Of a stretch of 64,000 nt of DNA, positions 50,448-64,000 are shown piece by piece. The position numbers and the translations under genes were made by a program. How positions within the stretch are numbered: position 1 is the first letter of the stretch; each line of letters begins with the position of its first letter. The notes beneath the pieces were generated by a model. It saw only the letters and a list, made by a program, of their open reading frames with translations, did not search any database and was not told where the DNA came from. The DNA is from Methanolobus sp. WCC4 (GTDB taxonomy: Archaea; Halobacteriota; Methanosarcinia; Methanosarcinales; Methanosarcinaceae). The stretch spans positions 1,036,480 to 1,100,479 of the forward strand of contig NZ_CP150629.1 of assembly GCF_038022665.1 (NCBI RefSeq), read 5' to 3'.

Positions 50448-52214
50448 TCAGAGCAGTTCGTTCTGTTCTTTTGTCTGTTCTCTCTGAAGTCTCTGGACCT
50501 TATCCAGTATCTTCTTGTCATATAGTTTGACTATATCACTGCGGGTTATTATGCCCAGCAGTTTAGTGCTGTCACTTCTGGCTACTACCGGTAGTCTTCC
50601 TATATCCTTTGCAGCAAGACGTTTCAGAACTGTGTTGAGATTTTCGTCGGGGTAGGCGACCTCTACATCCTTGCTGGCGATCTCATTGATATTCTTCTCA
50701 AGTTCATCATGTCCGACCTTGTCCCTGACATCCTTTAGGGTTACTATTCCGCAGAGCCTGCCGTTCGGGTCAAGTACGGGGAATCCCGCATGTCTGCTGG
50801 ATTGCATCAGAGCAACAAGCGCTCCAACGTTCTTGTTCTCGGAAACTGTCTGAACGTTGTGTTTCATGGCGTCTCTTACAAGGAGTGATTCCATTATGTC
50901 TACCTCTCTTCCTTTCCTGATGGTGAAGCCGCGGCGGTGGAGTCCTTCGGTGAAAATGGATTCGCTGTTCAGGGAACTTGACACAACATTGCTGATCACA
51001 CATGCCAGCATTATTGGAAGTATCATATTGTAGTCCCTTGTAAGCTCGAAGAGGATCAGTATGGATGCAAGGGGAGCCCTGCTAGTTCCTGCAAAGACTG
51101 CCCCCATGCCTACCAGTGCATATGCACCGGACTCTGCTGTGACCGCGGGGAAGATCCCATGGACTATAGAGCCGTATGTTCCTCCAAGCATTGCGCCGAC
51201 AAAGAGTGAGGGTACGATCGATCCTCCAGAACCACCGGAACCCATTGTAAATGAGAACGCAACTATCTTCAGGAAGATAAGTGTCAGCATCAGCTTTAAC
51301 GCAAGTCCGCTATTGAGGGCATCTGTGATAACATCGTATCCTACTCCGAACACCTGTGGGTAGAAATAACCGATGAAACCAACGAACAGGCCACCGATAG
51401 CAGGTTTGACTGCAGGGTGTATCGTCATGGAGTCGAATATCCTGTGTGCTCCGAAAAGTGATCGCAATAGTGCAGCGGATGCAACACCTGAGAGGATGCC
51501 AAGGAAAATATACAGGAATGATTCGTAAAAGGGATTGACGAAATGGTATGATGCAACTTCGATGGTCTGCACACCAAATAACATGCTTGATACCATTGTT
51601 GCAAAAACAGCAGAAATGACTATCGGAATGAATGAACTTGCCTCGAGTTCGCCAAGTATCACTTCCACAGCGAACACCACACCTGCAAGAGGTGCATTGT
51701 AGGCTGCAGCGATACCTCCTGAAGCCCCGCATCCTATGAGCACTTTAACACGATTTCCGTGTATCTTCAACGTTCTGGAGAGCAGTGAACCTATTCCGGA
51801 ACCTGCCAGGACCACTGGTGCTTCTTTGCCTACCGAACCGCCGGAACCAATGGATACCACGGATGCCAGCACTTCAAGGAATGCATTCCGTGGTGAGATA
51901 TTACCACCTCGAAGTGCTGTAGCTTCGATGACCTCTTCAATATCATAGCGTCTTGTATGTATCATTGTATGGGCTATGATACCTACAATAAGTCCTCCAA
52001 AGGCAGGAAGGAATATTACAAGGATGCCAGGCGAGTCAGGCAGTGAACCGAAAAATGAACCATGGCTGATCTCAAGTAGCCAGTCATAGAACACAATAGC
52101 AAAACCAGTAAGAACACCTACAATAAGTGCCAGGGAATTTGATATGAGTGACTCTGTCTGTAAAAACTGTGAAAATTTATTACCCGGAGTTTCATTCGCT
52201 TGTTCTTTGCCCAA
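50448..52214 (-). CDS. ClC-family chloride channel/antiporter with two CBS domains
   Basis: 588 aa. The membrane part (about 25-440) has the ClC filters GSGGSVGKEAPVV (about 122; Glu is the gating residue), GCGASGGIAAAYNAPLAG (about 161) and GSGGSGGSIVPSLFVGAMLG (about 324). Two CBS domains follow (about 455-575) that bind adenine nucleotides. The gating Glu suggests a chloride/proton antiporter, though channels also keep it. A coiled-coil tail ends it. Single gene, convergent with the methylthiotransferase gene. Confidence 0.93.
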   Translation of the reverse strand: MGKEQANETPGNKFSQFLQTESLISNSLALIVGVLTGFAIVFYDWLLEISHGSFFGSLPDSPGILVIFLPAFGGLIVGIIAHTMIHTRRYDIEEVIEATALRGGNISPRNAFLEVLASVVSIGSGGSVGKEAPVVLAGSGIGSLLSRTLKIHGNRVKVLIGCGASGGIAAAYNAPLAGVVFAVEVILGELEASSFIPIVISAVFATMVSSMLFGVQTIEVASYHFVNPFYESFLYIFLGILSGVASAALLRSLFGAHRIFDSMTIHPAVKPAIGGLFVGFIGYFYPQVFGVGYDVITDALNSGLALKLMLTLIFLKIVAFSFTMGSGGSGGSIVPSLFVGAMLGGTYGSIVHGIFPAVTAESGAYALVGMGAVFAGTSRAPLASILILFELTRDYNMILPIMLACVISNVVSSSLNSESIFTEGLHRRGFTIRKGREVDIMESLLVRDAMKHNVQTVSENKNVGALVALMQSSRHAGFPVLDPNGRLCGIVTLKDVRDKVGHDELEKNINEIASKDVEVAYPDENLNTVLKRLAAKDIGRLPVVARSDSTKLLGIITRSDIVKLYDKKILDKVQRLQREQTKEQNELL

Positions 52215-52571: not shown

Positions 52572-55500
52572 ATGCATCCCTTAGTTAAAAACAGCGAACA
52601 AAACGGAATATTGAATTATATACGGATACTTCTGTCGATATCAATTGTTCTTTCGACATTCAATCCATTGATCATAGCAAGTGCGGCACCTAATGAACCT
52701 ATAGAGGTAGTTAATACTACAGGGAACTTCTGGGTTCTTCATGATTGGGAACCTGCTAATACTGGTAACATAACAGATGGTTACAATATCAGTTATAATG
52801 GCACATGGGCTAATATAACTGAACCAAGTGAGTCGAAATTCAATCACAGTATCGGCCTGGGTCCACATAACTGGTCCAATATCACAATCTATGCTTACAA
52901 TGCCACTAGTTCCACCCTTTCACAGGGAGTTGACAGTAATGTTCAGATCCCTAACAATCCAATGAACATCACCGATATCAACTCTTCAGTCTCTGTCACT
53001 GTGGGTGACATCGTTCCTGTTGATGCTAACTTCACCGATGCAGACTATACTGATGTTGCTACATTTGATTGCAACCGTACTGATCTCTTCACTGATTTCA
53101 ACCATACCAATGGTACTGGCTCCTGGATTCCCGCTACTGCTGGTACTTACTATGTCGAGTTCAACGTAACTGACGGTTATGGTCTTCCTAATTCCACTAC
53201 AATGGAGGTTGTTGTCACCGATGTCAACAGAGCACCTGTCCTTAGTGCAATAGGTGACAAGAGCGCAATCGAAGGTCAGTCTCTTAACTTCAGCATCTTT
53301 GGCAATGATCCTGATGGAACTACTGTGACCTATTCCGCAGAGTCTCTTCCTTCTGGAGCTTCTCTTGATGAAACAACAGGTTACTTTGAGTGGACTCCTG
53401 ATTTCGATTCAGAAACAAGTTACAATGTCAATTTCATAGCTACTTCCAATGGTCTTGAGGACAATGAGACAATCACAATAACTGTAACAGATGTAGATCA
53501 GGCTCCTGTCCTTAGTGCAATAGGTGACAAGAGCGCAATCGAAGGTCAGTCTCTTAACTTCAGCATCTTTGGCAATGATCCTGATGGAACTACTGTGACC
53601 TATTCCGCAGAGTCTCTTCCTTCTGGAGCTTCTCTTGATGAAACAACAGGTTACTTTGAGTGGACTCCTGATTTCGATTCAGAAACTAGTTACAATGTCA
53701 ATTTCATAGCTACTTCCAATGGTCTTGAGGACAATGAGACAATCACAATAACTGTAACAGATGTAGATCAGGCTCCTGTCCTTAGTGCAATAGGTGACAA
53801 GAGCGCAATCGAAGGTCAGTCTCTTAACTTCAGCATCTTTGGCAATGATCCTGATGGAACTACTGTGACCTATTCCGCAGAGTCTCTTCCTTCTGGAGCT
53901 TCTCTTGATGAAACAACAGGTTACTTTGAGTGGACTCCTGATTTCGATTCAGAAACAAGTTACAATGTCAATTTCATAGCTACTTCCAATGGTCTTGAGG
54001 ACAATGAGACAATCACAATAACTGTAACAGATGTAGATCAGGCTCCTGTCCTTAGTGCAATAGGTGACAAGAGCGCAATCGAAGGTCAGTCTCTTAACTT
54101 CAGCATCTTTGGCAATGATCCTGATGGAACTACTGTGACCTATTCCGCAGAGTCTCTTCCTTCTGGAGCTTCTCTTGATGAAACAACAGGTTACTTTGAG
54201 TGGACTCCTGATTTCGATTCAGAAACAAGTTACAATGTCAATTTCATAGCTACTTCCAATGGTCTTGAGGACAATGAGACAATCACAATAACTGTAACAG
54301 ATGTAGATCAGGCTCCTGTCCTTAGTGCAATAGGTGACAAGAGCGCAATCGAAGGTCAGTCTCTTAACTTCAGCATCTTTGGCAATGATCCTGATGGAAC
54401 TACTGTGACCTATTCCGCAGAGTCTCTTCCTTCTGGAGCTTCTCTTGATGAAACAACAGGTTACTTTGAGTGGACTCCTGATTTCGATTCAGAAACAAGT
54501 TACAATGTCAATTTCATAGCTACTTCCAATGGTCTTGAGGACAATGAGACAATCACAATAACTGTAACAGATGTAGATCAGGCTCCTGTCCTTAGTGCAA
54601 TAGGTGACAAGAGCGCAATCGAAGGTCAGTCTCTTAACTTCAGCATCTTTGGCAATGATCCTGATGGAACTACTGTGACCTATTCCGCAGAGTCTCTTCC
54701 TTCTGGAGCTTCTCTTGATGAAACAACAGGTTACTTTGAGTGGACTCCTGATTTCGATTCAGAAACTAGTTACAATGTCAATTTCATAGCTACTTCCAAT
54801 GGTCTTGAGGACAATGAGACAATCACAATAACTGTAACAGATGTAGATCAGGCTCCTGTCCTTAGTGCAATAGGTGACAAGAGCGCAATCGAAGGTCAGT
54901 CTCTTAACTTCAGCATCTTTGGCAATGATCCTGATGGAACTACTGTGACCTATTCCGCAGAGTCTCTTCCTTCTGGAGCTTCTCTTGATGAAACAACAGG
55001 TTACTTTGAGTGGACTCCTGATTTCGATTCAGAAACAAGTTACAATGTCAATTTCATAGCTACTTCCAATGGTCTTGAGGACAATGAGACAATCACAATA
55101 ACTGTAACAGATGTAGATCAGGCTCCTGTCCTTAGTGCAATAGGTGACAAGAGCGCAATCGAAGGTCAGTCTCTTAACTTCAGCATCTTTGGCAATGATC
55201 CTGATGGAACTACTGTGACCTATTCCGCAGAGTCTCTTCCTTCTGGAGCTTCTCTTGATGAAACAACAGGTTACTTTGAGTGGACTCCTGATTTCGATTC
55301 AGAAACAAGTTACAATGTCAATTTCATAGCTACTTCCAATGGTCTTGAGGACAATGAGACAATCACAATAACTGTAACAGATGTAGATCAGGCTCCTGTC
55401 CTTAGTGCAATAGGTGACAAGAGCGCAATCGAAGGTCAGTCTCTTAACTTCAGCATCTTTGGCAATGATCCTGATGGAACTACTGTGACCTATTCCGCAG

Positions 55501-58500
55501 AGTCTCTTCCTTCTGGAGCTTCTCTTGATGAAACAACAGGTTACTTTGAGTGGACTCCTGATTTCGATTCAGAAACTAGTTACAATGTCAATTTCATAGC
55601 TACTTCCAATGGTCTTGAGGACAATGAGACAATCACAATAACTGTAACAGATGTAGATCAGGCTCCTGTCCTTAGTGCAATAGGTGACAAGAGCGCAATC
55701 GAAGGTCAGTCTCTTAACTTCAGCATCTTTGGCAATGATCCTGATGGAACTACTGTGACCTATTCCGCAGAGTCTCTTCCTTCTGGAGCTTCTCTTGATG
55801 AAACAACAGGTTACTTTGAGTGGACTCCTGATTTCGATTCAGAAACAAGTTACAATGTCAATTTCATAGCTACTTCCAATGGTCTTGAGGACAATGAGAC
55901 AATCACAATAACTGTAACAGATGTAGATCAGGCTCCTGTCCTTAGTGCAATAGGTGACAAGAGCGCAATCGAAGGTCAGTCTCTTAACTTCAGCATCTTT
56001 GGCAATGATCCTGATGGAACTACTGTGACCTATTCCGCAGAGTCTCTTCCTTCTGGAGCTTCTCTTGATGAAACAACAGGTTACTTTGAGTGGACTCCTG
56101 ATTTCGATTCAGAAACAAGTTACAATGTCAATTTCATAGCTACTTCCAATGGTCTTGAGGACAATGAGACAATCACAATAACTGTAACAGATGTAGATCA
56201 GGCTCCTGTCCTTAGTGCAATAGGTGACAAGAGCGCAATCGAAGGTCAGTCTCTTAACTTCAGCATCTTTGGCAATGATCCTGATGGAACTACTGTGACC
56301 TATTCCGCAGAGTCTCTTCCTTCTGGAGCTTCTCTTGATGAAACAACAGGTTACTTTGAGTGGACTCCTGATTTCGATTCAGAAACTAGTTACAATGTCA
56401 ATTTCATAGCTACTTCCAATGGTCTTGAGGACAATGAGACAATCACAATAACTGTAACAGATGTAGATCAGGCTCCTGTCCTTAGTGCAATAGGTGACAA
56501 GAGCGCAATCGAAGGTCAGTCTCTTAACTTCAGCATCTTTGGCAATGATCCTGATGGAACTACTGTGACCTATTCCGCAGAGTCTCTTCCTTCTGGAGCT
56601 TCTCTTGATGAAACAACAGGTTACTTTGAGTGGACTCCTGATTTCGATTCAGAAACTAGTTACAATGTCAATTTCATAGCTACTTCCAATGGTCTTGAGG
56701 ACAATGAGACAATCACAATAACTGTAACAGATGTAGATCAGGCTCCTGTCCTTAGTGCAATAGGTGACAAGAGCGCAATCGAAGGTCAGTCTCTTAACTT
56801 CAGCATCTTTGGCAATGATCCTGATGGAACTACTGTGACCTATTCCGCAGAGTCTCTTCCTTCTGGAGCTTCTCTTGATGAAACAACAGGTTACTTTGAG
56901 TGGACTCCTGATTTCGATTCAGAAACTAGTTACAATGTCAATTTCATAGCTACTTCCAATGGTCTTGAGGACAATGAGACAATCACAATAACTGTAACAG
57001 ATGTAGATCAGGCTCCTGTCCTTAGTGCAATAGGTGACAAGAGCGCAATCGAAGGTCAGTCTCTTAACTTCAGCATCTTTGGCAATGATCCTGATGGAAC
57101 TACTGTGACCTATTCCGCAGAGTCTCTTCCTTCTGGAGCTTCTCTTGATGAAACAACAGGTTACTTTGAGTGGACTCCTGATTTCGATTCAGAAACAAGT
57201 TACAATGTCAATTTCATAGCTACTTCCAATGGTCTTGAGGACAATGAGACAATCACAATAACTGTAACAGATGTAGATCAGGCTCCTGTCCTTAGTGCAA
57301 TAGGTGACAAGAGCGCAATCGAAGGTCAGTCTCTTAACTTCAGCATCTTTGGCAATGATCCTGATGGAACTACTGTGACCTATTCCGCAGAGTCTCTTCC
57401 TTCTGGAGCTTCTCTTGATGAAACAACAGGTTACTTTGAGTGGACTCCTGATTTCGATTCAGAAACAAGTTACAATGTCAATTTCATAGCTACTTCCAAT
57501 GGTCTTGAGGACAATGAGACAATCACAATAACTGTAACAGATGTAGATCAGGCTCCTGTCCTTAGTGCAATAGGTGACAAGAGCGCAATCGAAGGTCAGT
57601 CTCTTAACTTCAGCATCTTTGGCAATGATCCTGATGGAACTACTGTGACCTATTCCGCAGAGTCTCTTCCTTCTGGAGCTTCTCTTGATGAAACAACAGG
57701 TTACTTTGAGTGGACTCCTGATTTCGATTCAGAAACAAGTTACAATGTCAATTTCATAGCTACTTCCAATGGTCTTGAGGACAATGAGACAATCACAATA
57801 ACTGTAACAGATGTAGATCAGGCTCCTGTCCTTAGTGCAATAGGTGACAAGAGCGCAATCGAAGGTCAGTCTCTTAACTTCAGCATCTTTGGCAATGATC
57901 CTGATGGAACTACTGTGACCTATTCCGCAGAGTCTCTTCCTTCTGGAGCTTCTCTTGATGAAACAACAGGTTACTTTGAGTGGACTCCTGATTTCGATTC
58001 AGAAACTAGTTACAATGTCAATTTCATAGCTACTTCCAATGGTCTTGAGGACAATGAGACAATCACAATAACTGTAATAAACACCAATCAGGTTCCTGTA
58101 TTTAGAGCACTTGATGATCAGATTATAAGTGAAGGCGATACTCTTTCCTTCACCGTCAATGCAACAGATGCTGATGGTAATCCTGTTGTGTACGATTTCG
58201 TCTCCTTGCCTTCCGAAGCACTTTTTAATACTTCCACAGGTATTTTCTCCTGGACTCCTGAATATGACATGAGTGGTAGTTACACTGCTAATTTCAGTGC
58301 ATCTGATGCCGATACAACAGTGTATCAGGAAGTTGGTATTACAGTTTACAACACTAACAGAAAACCAGTTCTTGATTATATACCCAGTGTATCCGTGAAT
58401 GAAACAGAACCGTTTACTATCGTTCTCAGTGCAACTGATCCGGATGACCCCGATGGAAACTATCCGCTATACTATTCCACTAATTCAAGCCTAGGTAATC

Positions 58501-60269
58501 TCTCAGATAATGTATTTACCTGGACTCCTAATTATAGTCATCAGGGTATCCATCATCTCTATTTTACCGTAGATGATGGTGATCTTAATGATACAAAGAT
58601 GGCAGTTATTGGTGTAAATAATACCAATGTTGCCCCTGAATTTGACAATGTAGGACAACAGAATGTAAGTGAAGGTGGTAGTATTTCATTTGAAGTAACA
58701 GCAACTGACATTGATAATGATGCATTGAGCTACATTGTTTCAGGTGATCCTTCGACCTCTTATATTACATATAGTTCTACAGGACTCACATTTACTTGGG
58801 ATCCTGATTACGATGATGCTGGTACTTACAATGTAACTTTCATAGTGGAGGACGAACTAAAATATTCAGACGTTATGGTAGTACCTATCGTTGTCACTAA
58901 TGTCAATCGTGCTCCAACTTTTGATTCATTGCAATCAAGCTACACAATAAATGAAAGTGACAAACTAGAGATAGCTCTTGGTGCAAATGATTTGGACAAA
59001 GAGGATTCAATCATATTCTGGGTGAACAATACAGGTAATGCATCTGGAAATCTCATTGGAGATGTATATACATGGGAAACTGATTATCATGACAACGGTA
59101 CTTACAGTATAGAATTTGTAGTTTCAGATGGTACTGTCAATACATCGAATACAACTACAGTAATTGTAAACGATATAAATGCTCCTCCAGAATTGGTAGA
59201 AATCGGCTCAAAGGAAGTTGAAGAAGGAGATACACTCTCTTTCACAATTAGTGCGACTGATGAAGATGAGGATGACAATGATAATTTGATTTACTCTACC
59301 TCGACCCCACTTCCTGGTAATGCGACTTTTAGCAACGAAAGCCGTGTATTCAGCTGGACTCCTGTAACAGGTGAAGCAGGAGAATATGATGTGACATTCT
59401 ATGTAAGTGATGGTGAAGATACAGTCTCTGAAAAAGTAGTTATCACCGTAACTGAGACATCATCCACCACCAGTACTACCTCCTCCAGTTCCGGTGGTGG
59501 CGGAGGAGGTGGAGGTGGAGCTCTGACCTCCGGTGAAGAATTCGATAACATAGATTTCAAGGATTATACTTTGAAGTCTGTTGCGAGAGATGTTGAAACG
59601 ACATTCTCCTTCTACAGGGAGAATAACAGTATAGTTTCCCTGAGCTTTACCTCAGACCTCAATGGTGGACAGGTCAAAGCAGTTATCGAAGTCCTGAAGG
59701 ATACCTCCTCTCAGGTAAAGTCTGATGCACCCGGTGATGTTTACCAGAACATGAATATCTACATCGATTCGAACCTCGGAGATGATGTTATAGGTGACCG
59801 TGTGATCAATTTCAAGGTGGACAAGATATGGATAGAAGAGAACAATATCGATGTATCTTTCATCACACTTTGCAGATACAACAGTGGTAAATGGGATACA
59901 CTTTCAACGGAAGCAACGGGAGAAGATGAGAAGTACTATTACTTCACTGCTGTGACCCCCGGATTCTCTTCATTTGCAATATCAAGTGTGGTCCCATCTA
60001 CAGTTACCAAAGAGGTCACTGCCGAGGAAATAGTAGCTACACCTGTGGATATAGAACCATTGAAATCCACAGAAGAAGATGTACCACTGGAATCAGGAGC
60101 AAATCTTCCACAGAAGGAGAGTTCATCATTCCCATACATGATGGTCATTGGACTTATCGGTGTAATGGCGATTGGAGTAGTTGGTTACAGGAATAGGGAT
60201 TACTACGAAAAGGTGAAGCTCCAGATTGGAAATCCGGATGGTAAGCGCTACAGGCGTATGAAGAAATAA
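52572..60269 (+). CDS. Giant cell-surface protein with 18 Ig-like repeats and PGF-pre-PGF region
   Basis: 2565 aa from ATG at 52572. A signal peptide (about 18-39) ends at ASAAPNEP. After a unique Asn/Thr-rich domain (about 40-220) come 18 tandem 90-residue He_PIG/cadherin-like domains, nearly identical, then about five divergent ones. Each identical unit has two N-glycosylation sequons (NFS, NET). A Ser/Thr-rich and Gly9 linker leads to a PGF-pre-PGF domain with TPGFSSFAI, a short acidic spacer, one membrane segment (near MMVIGLIGVMAIGVVGY), and a basic tail NPDGKRYRRMKK. It is likely a membrane-anchored, glycosylated surface filament or adhesin. A smaller relative follows at 60549. Copy number may be variable between cells. 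Confidence 0.93.
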   Translation: MHPLVKNSEQNGILNYIRILLSISIVLSTFNPLIIASAAPNEPIEVVNTTGNFWVLHDWEPANTGNITDGYNISYNGTWANITEPSESKFNHSIGLGPHNWSNITIYAYNATSSTLSQGVDSNVQIPNNPMNITDINSSVSVTVGDIVPVDANFTDADYTDVATFDCNRTDLFTDFNHTNGTGSWIPATAGTYYVEFNVTDGYGLPNSTTMEVVVTDVNRAPVLSAIGDKSAIEGQSLNFSIFGNDPDGTTVTYSAESLPSGASLDETTGYFEWTPDFDSETSYNVNFIATSNGLEDNETITITVTDVDQAPVLSAIGDKSAIEGQSLNFSIFGNDPDGTTVTYSAESLPSGASLDETTGYFEWTPDFDSETSYNVNFIATSNGLEDNETITITVTDVDQAPVLSAIGDKSAIEGQSLNFSIFGNDPDGTTVTYSAESLPSGASLDETTGYFEWTPDFDSETSYNVNFIATSNGLEDNETITITVTDVDQAPVLSAIGDKSAIEGQSLNFSIFGNDPDGTTVTYSAESLPSGASLDETTGYFEWTPDFDSETSYNVNFIATSNGLEDNETITITVTDVDQAPVLSAIGDKSAIEGQSLNFSIFGNDPDGTTVTYSAESLPSGASLDETTGYFEWTPDFDSETSYNVNFIATSNGLEDNETITITVTDVDQAPVLSAIGDKSAIEGQSLNFSIFGNDPDGTTVTYSAESLPSGASLDETTGYFEWTPDFDSETSYNVNFIATSNGLEDNETITITVTDVDQAPVLSAIGDKSAIEGQSLNFSIFGNDPDGTTVTYSAESLPSGASLDETTGYFEWTPDFDSETSYNVNFIATSNGLEDNETITITVTDVDQAPVLSAIGDKSAIEGQSLNFSIFGNDPDGTTVTYSAESLPSGASLDETTGYFEWTPDFDSETSYNVNFIATSNGLEDNETITITVTDVDQAPVLSAIGDKSAIEGQSLNFSIFGNDPDGTTVTYSAESLPSGASLDETTGYFEWTPDFDSETSYNVNFIATSNGLEDNETITITVTDVDQAPVLSAIGDKSAIEGQSLNFSIFGNDPDGTTVTYSAESLPSGASLDETTGYFEWTPDFDSETSYNVNFIATSNGLEDNETITITVTDVDQAPVLSAIGDKSAIEGQSLNFSIFGNDPDGTTVTYSAESLPSGASLDETTGYFEWTPDFDSETSYNVNFIATSNGLEDNETITITVTDVDQAPVLSAIGDKSAIEGQSLNFSIFGNDPDGTTVTYSAESLPSGASLDETTGYFEWTPDFDSETSYNVNFIATSNGLEDNETITITVTDVDQAPVLSAIGDKSAIEGQSLNFSIFGNDPDGTTVTYSAESLPSGASLDETTGYFEWTPDFDSETSYNVNFIATSNGLEDNETITITVTDVDQAPVLSAIGDKSAIEGQSLNFSIFGNDPDGTTVTYSAESLPSGASLDETTGYFEWTPDFDSETSYNVNFIATSNGLEDNETITITVTDVDQAPVLSAIGDKSAIEGQSLNFSIFGNDPDGTTVTYSAESLPSGASLDETTGYFEWTPDFDSETSYNVNFIATSNGLEDNETITITVTDVDQAPVLSAIGDKSAIEGQSLNFSIFGNDPDGTTVTYSAESLPSGASLDETTGYFEWTPDFDSETSYNVNFIATSNGLEDNETITITVTDVDQAPVLSAIGDKSAIEGQSLNFSIFGNDPDGTTVTYSAESLPSGASLDETTGYFEWTPDFDSETSYNVNFIATSNGLEDNETITITVTDVDQAPVLSAIGDKSAIEGQSLNFSIFGNDPDGTTVTYSAESLPSGASLDETTGYFEWTPDFDSETSYNVNFIATSNGLEDNETITITVINTNQVPVFRALDDQIISEGDTLSFTVNATDADGNPVVYDFVSLPSEALFNTSTGIFSWTPEYDMSGSYTANFSASDADTTVYQEVGITVYNTNRKPVLDYIPSVSVNETEPFTIVLSATDPDDPDGNYPLYYSTNSSLGNLSDNVFTWTPNYSHQGIHHLYFTVDDGDLNDTKMAVIGVNNTNVAPEFDNVGQQNVSEGGSISFEVTATDIDNDALSYIVSGDPSTSYITYSSTGLTFTWDPDYDDAGTYNVTFIVEDELKYSDVMVVPIVVTNVNRAPTFDSLQSSYTINESDKLEIALGANDLDKEDSIIFWVNNTGNASGNLIGDVYTWETDYHDNGTYSIEFVVSDGTVNTSNTTTVIVNDINAPPELVEIGSKEVEEGDTLSFTISATDEDEDDNDNLIYSTSTPLPGNATFSNESRVFSWTPVTGEAGEYDVTFYVSDGEDTVSEKVVITVTETSSTTSTTSSSSGGGGGGGGGALTSGEEFDNIDFKDYTLKSVARDVETTFSFYRENNSIVSLSFTSDLNGGQVKAVIEVLKDTSSQVKSDAPGDVYQNMNIYIDSNLGDDVIGDRVINFKVDKIWIEENNIDVSFITLCRYNSGKWDTLSTEATGEDEKYYYFTAVTPGFSSFAISSVVPSTVTKEVTAEEIVATPVDIEPLKSTEEDVPLESGANLPQKESSSFPYMMVIGLIGVMAIGVVGYRNRDYYEKVKLQIGNPDGKRYRRMKK
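53232..58091 (+). repeat. Tandem array of 18 x 270-bp near-identical repeats
   Basis: Eighteen head-to-tail 270-bp units, in frame with the giant gene. By eye the units are identical except for one synonymous site (GAAACAAGT or GAAACTAGT, both Glu-Thr-Ser) and the outer edges of units 1 and 18. Order of that site, A or T, in units 1 to 18: A T A A A T A A T A A T T T A A A T. Period was checked from fixed landmarks at 53502, 53772 and 57822. Confidence 0.98.
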
Positions 60270-60548
60270 TAGCTATTTATTGATGGCAGCGGACCTGGGA
60301 AATGTCTGCTGCCAGATCAATTTGCACATCACCATTATTTATTATCAATGTTCTATATGTTTATTAGTATATTCAAATAGCTTTATCTTGATCAAGGCTA
60401 AATTAGAATCGACTATGGAGGAGATTCTATCTTTGATAGCATACGAAATACGTCTTCCCATTCAAATGGCAACGGGAAAGTAGATGGTACATCAAAAATT
60501 GGGCATTTCTCACTAAGAGTTCTGCTTATTCTCATTCTTTTCATATTC

Positions 60549-62990
60549 TTGCAATCAACGGCATTCGCGGCAGTAGCTGATTATCCAGTTCTGGATGTGA
60601 TAGGTGACCGCTTTGTCGATGAGAATAGTTTACTCAGCTTCACATTATCTGCAGATGATTCTGAGAATGATACTCTTACATTCACCTGTCCTGATATTGA
60701 TTCAATTGCGGGTGCAACACTCGATCCTTCTTCCGGTCTTTTTGAATGGACTCCCACTTATGAACAGGCTGATGAATATCTTGTTCAGTTCGTGGTTTCC
60801 GATGGTTCTAACATTGATTCTGAATACATAACGATTACAGTGAAAAACACAAATCGTGCACCTGTTTTTTCAGTCATTCCAGATTCATCAACAAATGAGA
60901 ATGAAGAGATTCAATTAACACTTGATACAACTGACGAGGATTCGGACATTCTCGCCTTTTCAAAGGATGTTTCATTTGGAACCCTTGATGGCAATGTTTT
61001 CACATGGACACCTGATTATGATGATCAGGGAGAGCATGAGATTGTTTTCAGTGTGACTGACGGTTCATCTACAGTGACCCAGAGTGCTTTGATCAATGTT
61101 TCCAATGTGAACAGGGGTACGATACTGTATTCCATAAGTGATGTTTCAGTTCCTGAAAATACACCTGTTACAATTCAGTTGAATGGTTTTGATGCTGATG
61201 GAGACGAGCTTGGCTATTCTTCAAGTAGTTTACCTTCTGGATCAACATTTGATTCGGATACTGGTTTGTTCCAATGGTCAAATCCAACTTCTGGAACTTA
61301 TGATTTGACTTTTCGCGTTACAGATAGTTATGCTTCAGATACAAAATATCCACAAATCGTAGTTGGTGCTACTTCTGAACATCCTCCAAACCTGAATTCT
61401 ATAGATTCTAAATCAATCAATGAGGGTTCAGAAGTATCATTTGATATTACAGCATTAGATGATGATAATGACAAGATTGATATTTCACTTGTATCTCCAC
61501 CTTCAGGTTCATATTTAATAGGTAGTGGTTCTTCAGTTTCATTTGTATGGATTCCTGGTTATGAGCAGGCTGGCAGCTATAAAGTAGAATTCAAGGTTTC
61601 AGAAACCAACACAAAATACAGATTTGCTACATATCAGGTAGTTGACATCATAGTTAATGATGTGAACCGTGCTCCTGTAATCAATACTGTGGCAGATTAC
61701 ATCGTTGCTGAAAATGATATTCTTTATGTTGATCTGAGTGCAACTGATCTTGATGGTGACACACTCACTTATTCAACAGATAGCAGCCTTGGCATTGTAC
61801 GCGGTAACACTTTCATATGTACACCGGATTACAATGATGAAGGTGTGTACGATGTGCTGTACACTGTATCAGATGGAAGTCTGAAAAATAGTGCCACAGC
61901 AACTATCACAGTTACTGATTCGAATATGCCTCCAAAGATCAATTCCATAAGTCCTATGGAGGTTGCAATAAACAATACACTGGATTTCTCTCTTTCAGTA
62001 TCCGATGAGGATGTAAGTGATACATTCTCTTATAAGGCACTGGACCTGCCTTCGAATGCATCATTTGACGAGTCATCAGGTTCATTTGAATGGACTCCCT
62101 CCAGTGATGACATCGGTGATTATTCAGTTAGTTTCTATGTAAGCGACAGTTCTCATGAGGACTATGAGACCGTTTCAATAACTGTCACTGAGACTTCATC
62201 TTCCTCATCCAGCACGACTTCCAGCTCAAGCAGTGGTGGTGGAGGGGGCGGTGGTTCCATGACTACTGGTGAACCTTACAAGAACGTTGCCTTCAAGGAC
62301 TATGTATTGAGACCGGTCATCAGGGATACTGAAACAGTGTTCTCATTCAATAAGGATGAGAATAGTATAACTTCGATAAGTTTCACATCCATGCGCAATG
62401 CAGGTCAGATAAAAGCAATGGTAGAGATGTTAAAAGGAACCTCATCTCTGGTTGATGGTGAGGCACCAGGGACGGTTTACAGGAACCTTAACATATGGGT
62501 TGGGGACTCGAAGTTCTCTTCCGACACTCTTTCTGACATTATCATCAAATTCAAGATCGAAAGCTCCTGGTTCGATCCTGATGACCACGACCCGGAACTG
62601 ATAGAGTTGTACAGGTATCATGATGGTTCATGGAACCCATTGGAAACCTCTCTTACAGGCGAGGATGATGAATACTTCTATTATGAAGCAGAAACATCAG
62701 GATTCTCATCATTTGCTATCCTCGTTCCTCCCGAGATCAAGGAGATATCGATGGCAGAAGAGGATTCAACTATCGACGGGACAATGATGTCTCTGGATGA
62801 TGAGATGCCTGAGGGTGAAAGCGTTCAGCCTGCTTCACAGGATAGTAAAAGGTCCATTTTACTGCTCTTTGTGATAGCTATCATCGGCTCATTCGTATTT
62901 CTGGGATATAGATACAGATTCTACTATGATGAGCTATACAAGCAGATCGCCAATCCGGACGGTAAGCGTTACAGACGCATTAAAAGGTAA
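60549..62990 (+). CDS. Cell-surface protein with Ig-like domains, PGF-pre-PGF relative
   Basis: 813 aa counted from TTG at 60549. About six divergent He_PIG/cadherin-like domains (each with a FEWTP- or FTWTP-type strand) are followed by a Ser/Thr plus Gly6 linker, a PGF-pre-PGF domain (here TSGFSSFAI), a membrane segment (LLLFVIAIIGSFVFLGY) and tail NPDGKRYRRIKR, parallel to the giant neighbour. The TTG lies inside the signal peptide: in frame upstream are LRVLLILILFIF and a basic/polar stretch, but no ATG, GTG or TTG as far back as 60411. The real start is therefore non-standard or the sequence has an indel. No array of identical repeats is present. Confidence 0.88.
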   Translation: MQSTAFAAVADYPVLDVIGDRFVDENSLLSFTLSADDSENDTLTFTCPDIDSIAGATLDPSSGLFEWTPTYEQADEYLVQFVVSDGSNIDSEYITITVKNTNRAPVFSVIPDSSTNENEEIQLTLDTTDEDSDILAFSKDVSFGTLDGNVFTWTPDYDDQGEHEIVFSVTDGSSTVTQSALINVSNVNRGTILYSISDVSVPENTPVTIQLNGFDADGDELGYSSSSLPSGSTFDSDTGLFQWSNPTSGTYDLTFRVTDSYASDTKYPQIVVGATSEHPPNLNSIDSKSINEGSEVSFDITALDDDNDKIDISLVSPPSGSYLIGSGSSVSFVWIPGYEQAGSYKVEFKVSETNTKYRFATYQVVDIIVNDVNRAPVINTVADYIVAENDILYVDLSATDLDGDTLTYSTDSSLGIVRGNTFICTPDYNDEGVYDVLYTVSDGSLKNSATATITVTDSNMPPKINSISPMEVAINNTLDFSLSVSDEDVSDTFSYKALDLPSNASFDESSGSFEWTPSSDDIGDYSVSFYVSDSSHEDYETVSITVTETSSSSSSTTSSSSSGGGGGGGSMTTGEPYKNVAFKDYVLRPVIRDTETVFSFNKDENSITSISFTSMRNAGQIKAMVEMLKGTSSLVDGEAPGTVYRNLNIWVGDSKFSSDTLSDIIIKFKIESSWFDPDDHDPELIELYRYHDGSWNPLETSLTGEDDEYFYYEAETSGFSSFAILVPPEIKEISMAEEDSTIDGTMMSLDDEMPEGESVQPASQDSKRSILLLFVIAIIGSFVFLGYRYRFYYDELYKQIANPDGKRYRRIKR

Positions 62991-63118
62991 CATGCTATAG
63001 TTTATACGTGATATCTTTTTTACGATAGGATAATTTTCATATTTGGGCTCAACATCCCTTACTTTTATCTATCATCGAACTGTATTGATAATAAGGGAAA
63101 ATTTACAGGGAGAAATAC

Positions 63119-64000
63119 ATGCTGGAAAGAATGTTCAGTCCTAATTCAGTAGCGGTTATCGGTGCTTCCAGAAAAGAGGGTAAAGTAGGAAGGGCCGTAC
63201 TTGAGAATCTCATGCAGAACAGTGAGCTCATCATTATACCAATAAATCCGGGTGCAGATGAGATACTGGGTCTGCCTTGCTATCACAACATAATGGATGT
63301 TCCGGATGATAAAAAGCCTGAAATGGCAGTTATCGTGGTTCCGGCAAAGTTCGTACCTCAGGCTATAGATGAATGCGGGCAGGCAGGTGTGAGCAATGTG
63401 ATAGTGATCTCCGCCGGCTTCAAAGAGGCTGGCGTGGAGGGTGCACGTCTTGAACGTGAATGTATCTCCCTTTGTGAACAGTACGGCATCGATATGATCG
63501 GTCCTAACTGTCTTGGTATCATTGACACCGCATCAGGTATCAATGCATCATTTGCAGCCAACATGGCCTACGAGGGCAATATAGCAATGATGTCACAGTC
63601 CGGTGCAATATGCACGGTAACACTTGACTGGGCAGAGAGGATCGGTGTGGGTTTCTCGAAGTTCATAAGTCTGGGTAACAAAGCCGTCCTTGCGGAGAAC
63701 GATTTCCTGAGAATGTTCGAAGAGGATGATACAACTGCTGTCATAGCAGCCTATCTTGAAGGGGTCAAGGACGGGCCTGAGTTCATAAAGATAGCACAAC
63801 GTGTTTCCCGGTCAAAACCTATCATAATCGTAAAATCGGGGCGTACTTCCGTTGGTTCCAGGGCGGTATCATCTCATACCGGTACACTTGCAGGTTCGGA
63901 TGCTGCCTACAACGCAGGTTTTAAGCAGGGAGGTGTCATCAGAGCTGATTCCCTTGAGGAAATGCTCGACTACAGCCGTGCTTTCTCTGTCTGTCCTTTG
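63119..64000 (+). CDS. ADP-forming acetyl/acyl-CoA synthetase, alpha region (3' truncated)
   Basis: The frame runs from ATG at 63119, with GGGAG 6 nt upstream, to the window edge (294 codons, no stop). The N-terminal CoA-binding domain reads NSVAVIGASRKEGKVGRAVL (about 8-27). The succinyl-CoA-ligase-like domain has MSQSGAICT (about 158) and the phospho-His loop SHTGTLAGSDAAY (about 250). The enzyme converts acyl-CoA, ADP and Pi to the acid, CoA and ATP, or the reverse. Whether a beta domain is fused cannot be seen. It follows the surface protein gene by 128 bp. Confidence 0.92.
   Translation, partial: MLERMFSPNSVAVIGASRKEGKVGRAVLENLMQNSELIIIPINPGADEILGLPCYHNIMDVPDDKKPEMAVIVVPAKFVPQAIDECGQAGVSNVIVISAGFKEAGVEGARLERECISLCEQYGIDMIGPNCLGIIDTASGINASFAANMAYEGNIAMMSQSGAICTVTLDWAERIGVGFSKFISLGNKAVLAENDFLRMFEEDDTTAVIAAYLEGVKDGPEFIKIAQRVSRSKPIIIVKSGRTSVGSRAVSSHTGTLAGSDAAYNAGFKQGGVIRADSLEEMLDYSRAFSVCPL

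Follow-up and report, generated by a model that had tools for sequence, protein, structure and literature searches.

Periscope proteins, among them SasG/Aap, Rib/alpha C, Sgo_0707 and CdrA, are the closest described systems to the surface protein considered here (PMC8201768, PMC9704523), and archaea are unmentioned in these two papers. The class comprises proteins attached to the cell surface with repeats of more than 50 residues and at least 80% identity, and its further traits are a copy number that differs between closely related strains and repeats that fold as separate domains of an elongated rod (Whelan et al. 2021). A cluster of related genes for tandem-repeat surface antigens is also on record from a related methanogen, Methanosarcina mazei S-6 (Mayerhofer et al. 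1995, cited in PMC2447325), and is likened to the present case by description only. A third point of comparison is staphylococcal SraP (PDB 4m00/4m03), whose cadherin-like domains lie within a solved ligand-binding region.

The locus analysed here lies in a 64,000-nucleotide stretch (the window) of the genome of Methanolobus sp. WCC4 and encodes an archaeal example of this known kind; the array is unusually clean, and the pattern extends over the locus. Its repeats are 90-aa units, identical in protein sequence in 17 of the 18 and ~100% identical in DNA. The protein resembles Periscope proteins in having tandem beta-sandwich repeats that are near-identical in DNA, short Pro-containing linkers, an N-terminal head and a C-terminal anchor, and differs from them in that it is archaeal and its anchor consists of a PGF-pre-PGF domain followed by a transmembrane helix and basic tail, where Periscope proteins have a bacterial cell-wall anchor. 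Further, Periscope copy number varies within species, whereas the stalk is known here from one genome per species; by analogy the stalk would work like a Periscope protein, to which it is likened without being assigned to the class. Our preferred reading, which we regard as probable, is that the array forms the stalk of an archaeal surface protein which is anchored in the membrane and whose repeats turn over by recombination in a Periscope-like manner.

The stalk protein gene occupies positions 52572..60269 of the forward strand (2565 aa from ATG 52572, stop included). This start is conserved (MHP..KNS..NG.L.YIR), and orthologues have KGESMHPxxKNS in common, i.e. a GGAGAG ribosome-binding site ahead of ATG 52572, with the GTG start of the ORF tool (52554) six codons upstream. 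A putative N-terminal signal peptide region that is conserved in congeners (52572..52691) precedes a head (52692..53231) assigned from profile matches as an FN3-like domain followed by a diverged PKD/He_PIG-like domain (dom0); both head matches are weak and below curated cut-offs (fn3, E 0.018; PKD_4, E 0.013). The array (53232..58091) is followed by five diverged He_PIG/Big_9-type domains (dom19-23, 58092..59519) and an anchor (59520..60266) comprising the end of a Gly-rich linker, a PGF-pre-PGF domain (TIGR04213), a transmembrane helix and a basic tail (GNPDGKRYRRMKK), all on the forward strand. The linker ahead of the PGF-pre-PGF domain is Ser/Gly-rich, and both the signal peptide and the C-terminal transmembrane helix were read from sequence. 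The TIGR04213 match scores 153.5 bits against an NCBIfam cut-off of 28 (E 4e-45), and the same domain was detected in the control genomes Methanosarcina acetivorans and Haloferax volcanii. Matches to TgpA_N, PriL, DmpG_comm and myxo_dep_M36 from Pfam/NCBIfam were rejected as spurious, their totals being inflated by the repeats; single stretches were fragmentary or sub-threshold, and several totals fell under the curated cut-off. On the left the locus is bounded by a ClC-type channel gene with CBS domains (50448..52214, reverse strand) and on the right by an acyl-CoA synthetase (ADP-forming)-like gene (63119..64000, forward strand), both conserved boundaries named from their sequence. A second PGF-pre-PGF surface gene with six diverged domains and no array lies between the stalk gene and the right boundary (60402..62990, forward strand). 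Most congeners examined carry a third large stalk gene ahead of the acyl-CoA synthetase gene, which is absent here (60402-63118); the amplified domain resembles domains of the third stalk genes in three congeners (G004, G020 and G007).

A single unit matches He_PIG (PF05345) at 53.9 bits, against a Pfam gathering cut-off of 24, with unit residues 1-86 of 90 aligned to profile positions 1-96 of 96. The AlphaFold2 model of two units is all-beta (pLDDT 96.6, pTM 0.76), and its top matches in the PDB are cadherin-like domains, those of SraP and of cadherin-23; the SraP domains are the closest fold with a weak sequence match, and differ from the stalk in forming part of a ligand-binding region where the stalk protein has a long identical array. 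Across an alignment of 96 domain pairs, E14, D26 and their second-domain equivalents are invariant or nearly so. The calcium sites of cadherin-like domains are conserved in this manner, and the stalk domains may accordingly bind calcium. Cadherin-like domains measure about 4-4.5 nm in length, from which the stalk is predicted to be a rod of ~70-80 nm. Its length would change in steps of 90 aa, one domain each and without frameshift, and by analogy with Periscope proteins stalk length may set the distance of the head from the cell.

The initial annotation had reported 18 repeats of 270 bp at 53232-58091, and autocorrelation, TRF (17.9 copies, score 9637, far above chance expectation) and unit-by-unit comparison all returned this period, with the 18 units in register and the reading frame uninterrupted across them. 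Its claim that the units are identical save for one A/T site stands for the interior and needs slight amendment at the outer edges, where unit 1 begins with codon GCA in place of GCT, and unit 18 carries seven substitutions within its last 14 bases, altering four residues (TDVDQ to INTNQ). The single interior variable site is unit position 186, A or T (ACA/ACT, both Thr), and the order along the array, ATAAATAATAATTTAAAT (11 A units, 7 T units), is exactly that given in the annotation. The array ends abruptly, with identity falling at once from ~100% to 32% on the upstream side (dom0) and to 53% on the downstream side (dom19). The T variant was also expected to permit mapping of the order through an ACTAGT site; every T unit does contain ACTAGT, with one more in the same gene at 52905, but the predicted complete digest of the array (1080/810/810/270/270/1080) gives fragment sizes and not order, so that partial digests or long reads would be needed.

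Each unit contains 62.3 synonymous sites, one of which is variable, and the mean pairwise difference between units is 0.50 per unit, or ~0.8% of synonymous sites, compared with a dS of ~0.75 between the anchor and its closest counterpart among the congeners. This comparison bears out the proposal in the initial annotation that such uniformity reflects very recent expansion or continuing homogenisation. One of these two processes is required, protein-level selection alone being insufficient, because identity at synonymous sites matches that of the remainder of the unit. The possibility that purifying selection on the domain sequence holds 18 old copies identical could draw on the shared protein sequence of 17 units; however, protein constraint cannot fix ~62 synonymous sites per unit, and most residues do differ between homologous domains within this gene, so that this explanation is refuted by the synonymous identity and retains a negligible probability. 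Under the preferred reading of a recombining stalk, the repeats would recombine with one another by unequal exchange, slippage or gene conversion between chromosome copies, such that gain, loss and homogenisation of copies may outpace mutation, and the two-state site would represent a single mutation caught mid-spread across the array. Very efficient gene conversion is reported for polyploid haloarchaea and methanogens (PMC8223754). In a simulated exchanging array, one mid-frequency variant arose readily at ~0.001-0.002 mutations per unit per exchange event, a crude simulation that indicates order of magnitude only.

The blocks AAT and AAAT recur along the array and had been taken as a hint of multi-unit duplication. 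This interpretation was not upheld, as the A/T order is indistinguishable from a random one: in tests that covered longest repeats, LZ complexity, runs, tandem squares and shift autocorrelation, six statistics and all shifts lay where those of random permutations lie, and the minimum number of tandem duplication steps, 7, equalled the random median, in tests that are low in power for an 18-letter two-state string. The scattered T units nevertheless argue against single-step amplification. Their distribution is also relevant to a single recent burst, in which one unit was amplified in few steps, the array was otherwise inert and its identity simply reflects youth. Edge units 1 and 18 are identical like those of the interior, as a burst would predict, while older exchanging arrays such as that of congener G004 have diverged edges; against this, the T variant occurs in five separate runs, for which tandem duplication alone needs at least seven steps. 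The internal junction (GATGTAGATCAG|GCTCCT) likewise matches neither the upstream edge (AACAGA|GCA) nor the downstream edge (AATCAG|GTT). The first duplication would accordingly not have been a simple joining of the present flanks, a point that is suggestive without being decisive. On balance a burst seems unlikely, and turnover of the repeats by recombination remains the preferred reading. An archaeal array of 18 copies with a built-in two-state marker offers a natural test of the rate of array turnover in archaea.

Fifteen congeners have the locus, with the ClC-type gene as its border and, on the right, the acyl-CoA synthetase gene in most of those whose contig extends to it. Across these congeners the protein is conserved at both ends, in the N terminus (MHP..KNS..NG.L) and in the anchor, with anchor amino acid identity of 80-86% in G008, G001, G005 and G025, and the stalk differs. 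Near-identical arrays of their own, or assembly breaks within one, were found in seven of the 15 and consist of other units, in some cases unrelated domains; the remaining eight have diverged repeats only, or incomplete sequence. The congener with the most similar anchor (G008, 86%) carries three 339-bp repeats that are 100% identical (L101:9827-10846), each unit being an unrelated domain of 113 aa with no Pfam family above cut-off. G020 has four identical 270-bp units followed by diverged units, and G004 has three 261-bp Big_3-type units that are 96% identical, with a neighbouring gene containing 8.9 copies of a 276-bp unit at 99% identity (L105:5257-7711). Within this 276-bp array, the same variants occur in mosaic combinations among units and private changes are more frequent at the ends, a pattern left by units exchanging sequence. 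Highly identical tandem-domain stalks are described as a class in bacteria; at the archaeal locus considered here, congeners amplify unrelated domains. The initial annotation had suggested that copy number would change surface filament length; the gene encodes a predicted surface stalk, stalk length and composition differ between congeners at this locus, and the 'filament' is better taken for a stalk made of a single chain.

Sequence at the same locus in other assemblies is frequently interrupted. Contigs of G007 end within arrays of 97-98% identity, and in G005, G013 and G017 the repeats on either side of an assembly gap are 98.5% (68 nt, a short and weak case), 93-100% and 97% identical, respectively. 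All three gaps found in the syntenic loci analysed thus fall within near-identical repeats (L103:15548-16563, L113:8998-9097 and L114:5112-5208). Identical arrays of 4.86 kb defeat short reads, and this, together with the breaks and N gaps in congener assemblies, raises the question of whether the array really has 18 units in the A/T order assembled. However, the host assembly is a single contig of 2.85 Mb (2,851,899 bp) in which the array was found unchanged, an ordered, non-periodic A/T pattern is resolved within it, and the frame is open through all units, such that an assembly artefact is considered quite improbable. These observations carry a warning that draft assemblies under-report such arrays.

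The unit itself has no close DNA match in the 111 other genomes of the family, the best being 69% over 210 bp, and its nearest protein relatives within the genus are 57-59% identical. Against named genomes, the only match was a distant bacterial one, in Pragia fontium (37% identity over part of the unit). Since the family genomes contain no close copy, the idea that the array came directly from one of the relatives sampled was rejected. A donor elsewhere in the same genome was rejected too, all 30 matching domains there lying in the stalk gene and its neighbour. The 18 units make up a single clade in the domain tree (0.95), which joins domains of G013 and G007 weakly, and dom19 clusters (0.89) with domains that this gene encodes in G022-G024; dom19 and dom23 both fall with domains from the congeners' copies of this gene or of its sister genes. 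Inheritance thus accounts for the flanks, and the interior is species-specific: congeners keep the ends and differ in the stalk, and the unit is without close DNA relatives. A broader possibility, which we hold tentatively and judge somewhat short of likely, is that the interval from the ClC-type gene to the acyl-CoA synthetase gene serves the genus as a stalk-exchange cassette, in which the N terminus and anchor stay fixed and the interior is replaced time and again by another domain that is then amplified into near-identical arrays. If so, length variation of the Periscope type would exist in archaea in a form of their own, and assembly breaks would often conceal it in draft genomes. The same genome also contains, in a second PGF-pre-PGF region, an array of 6.1 copies of a 261-bp unit at 88% identity (L121:8996-10578), a diverged contrast to the array described here.
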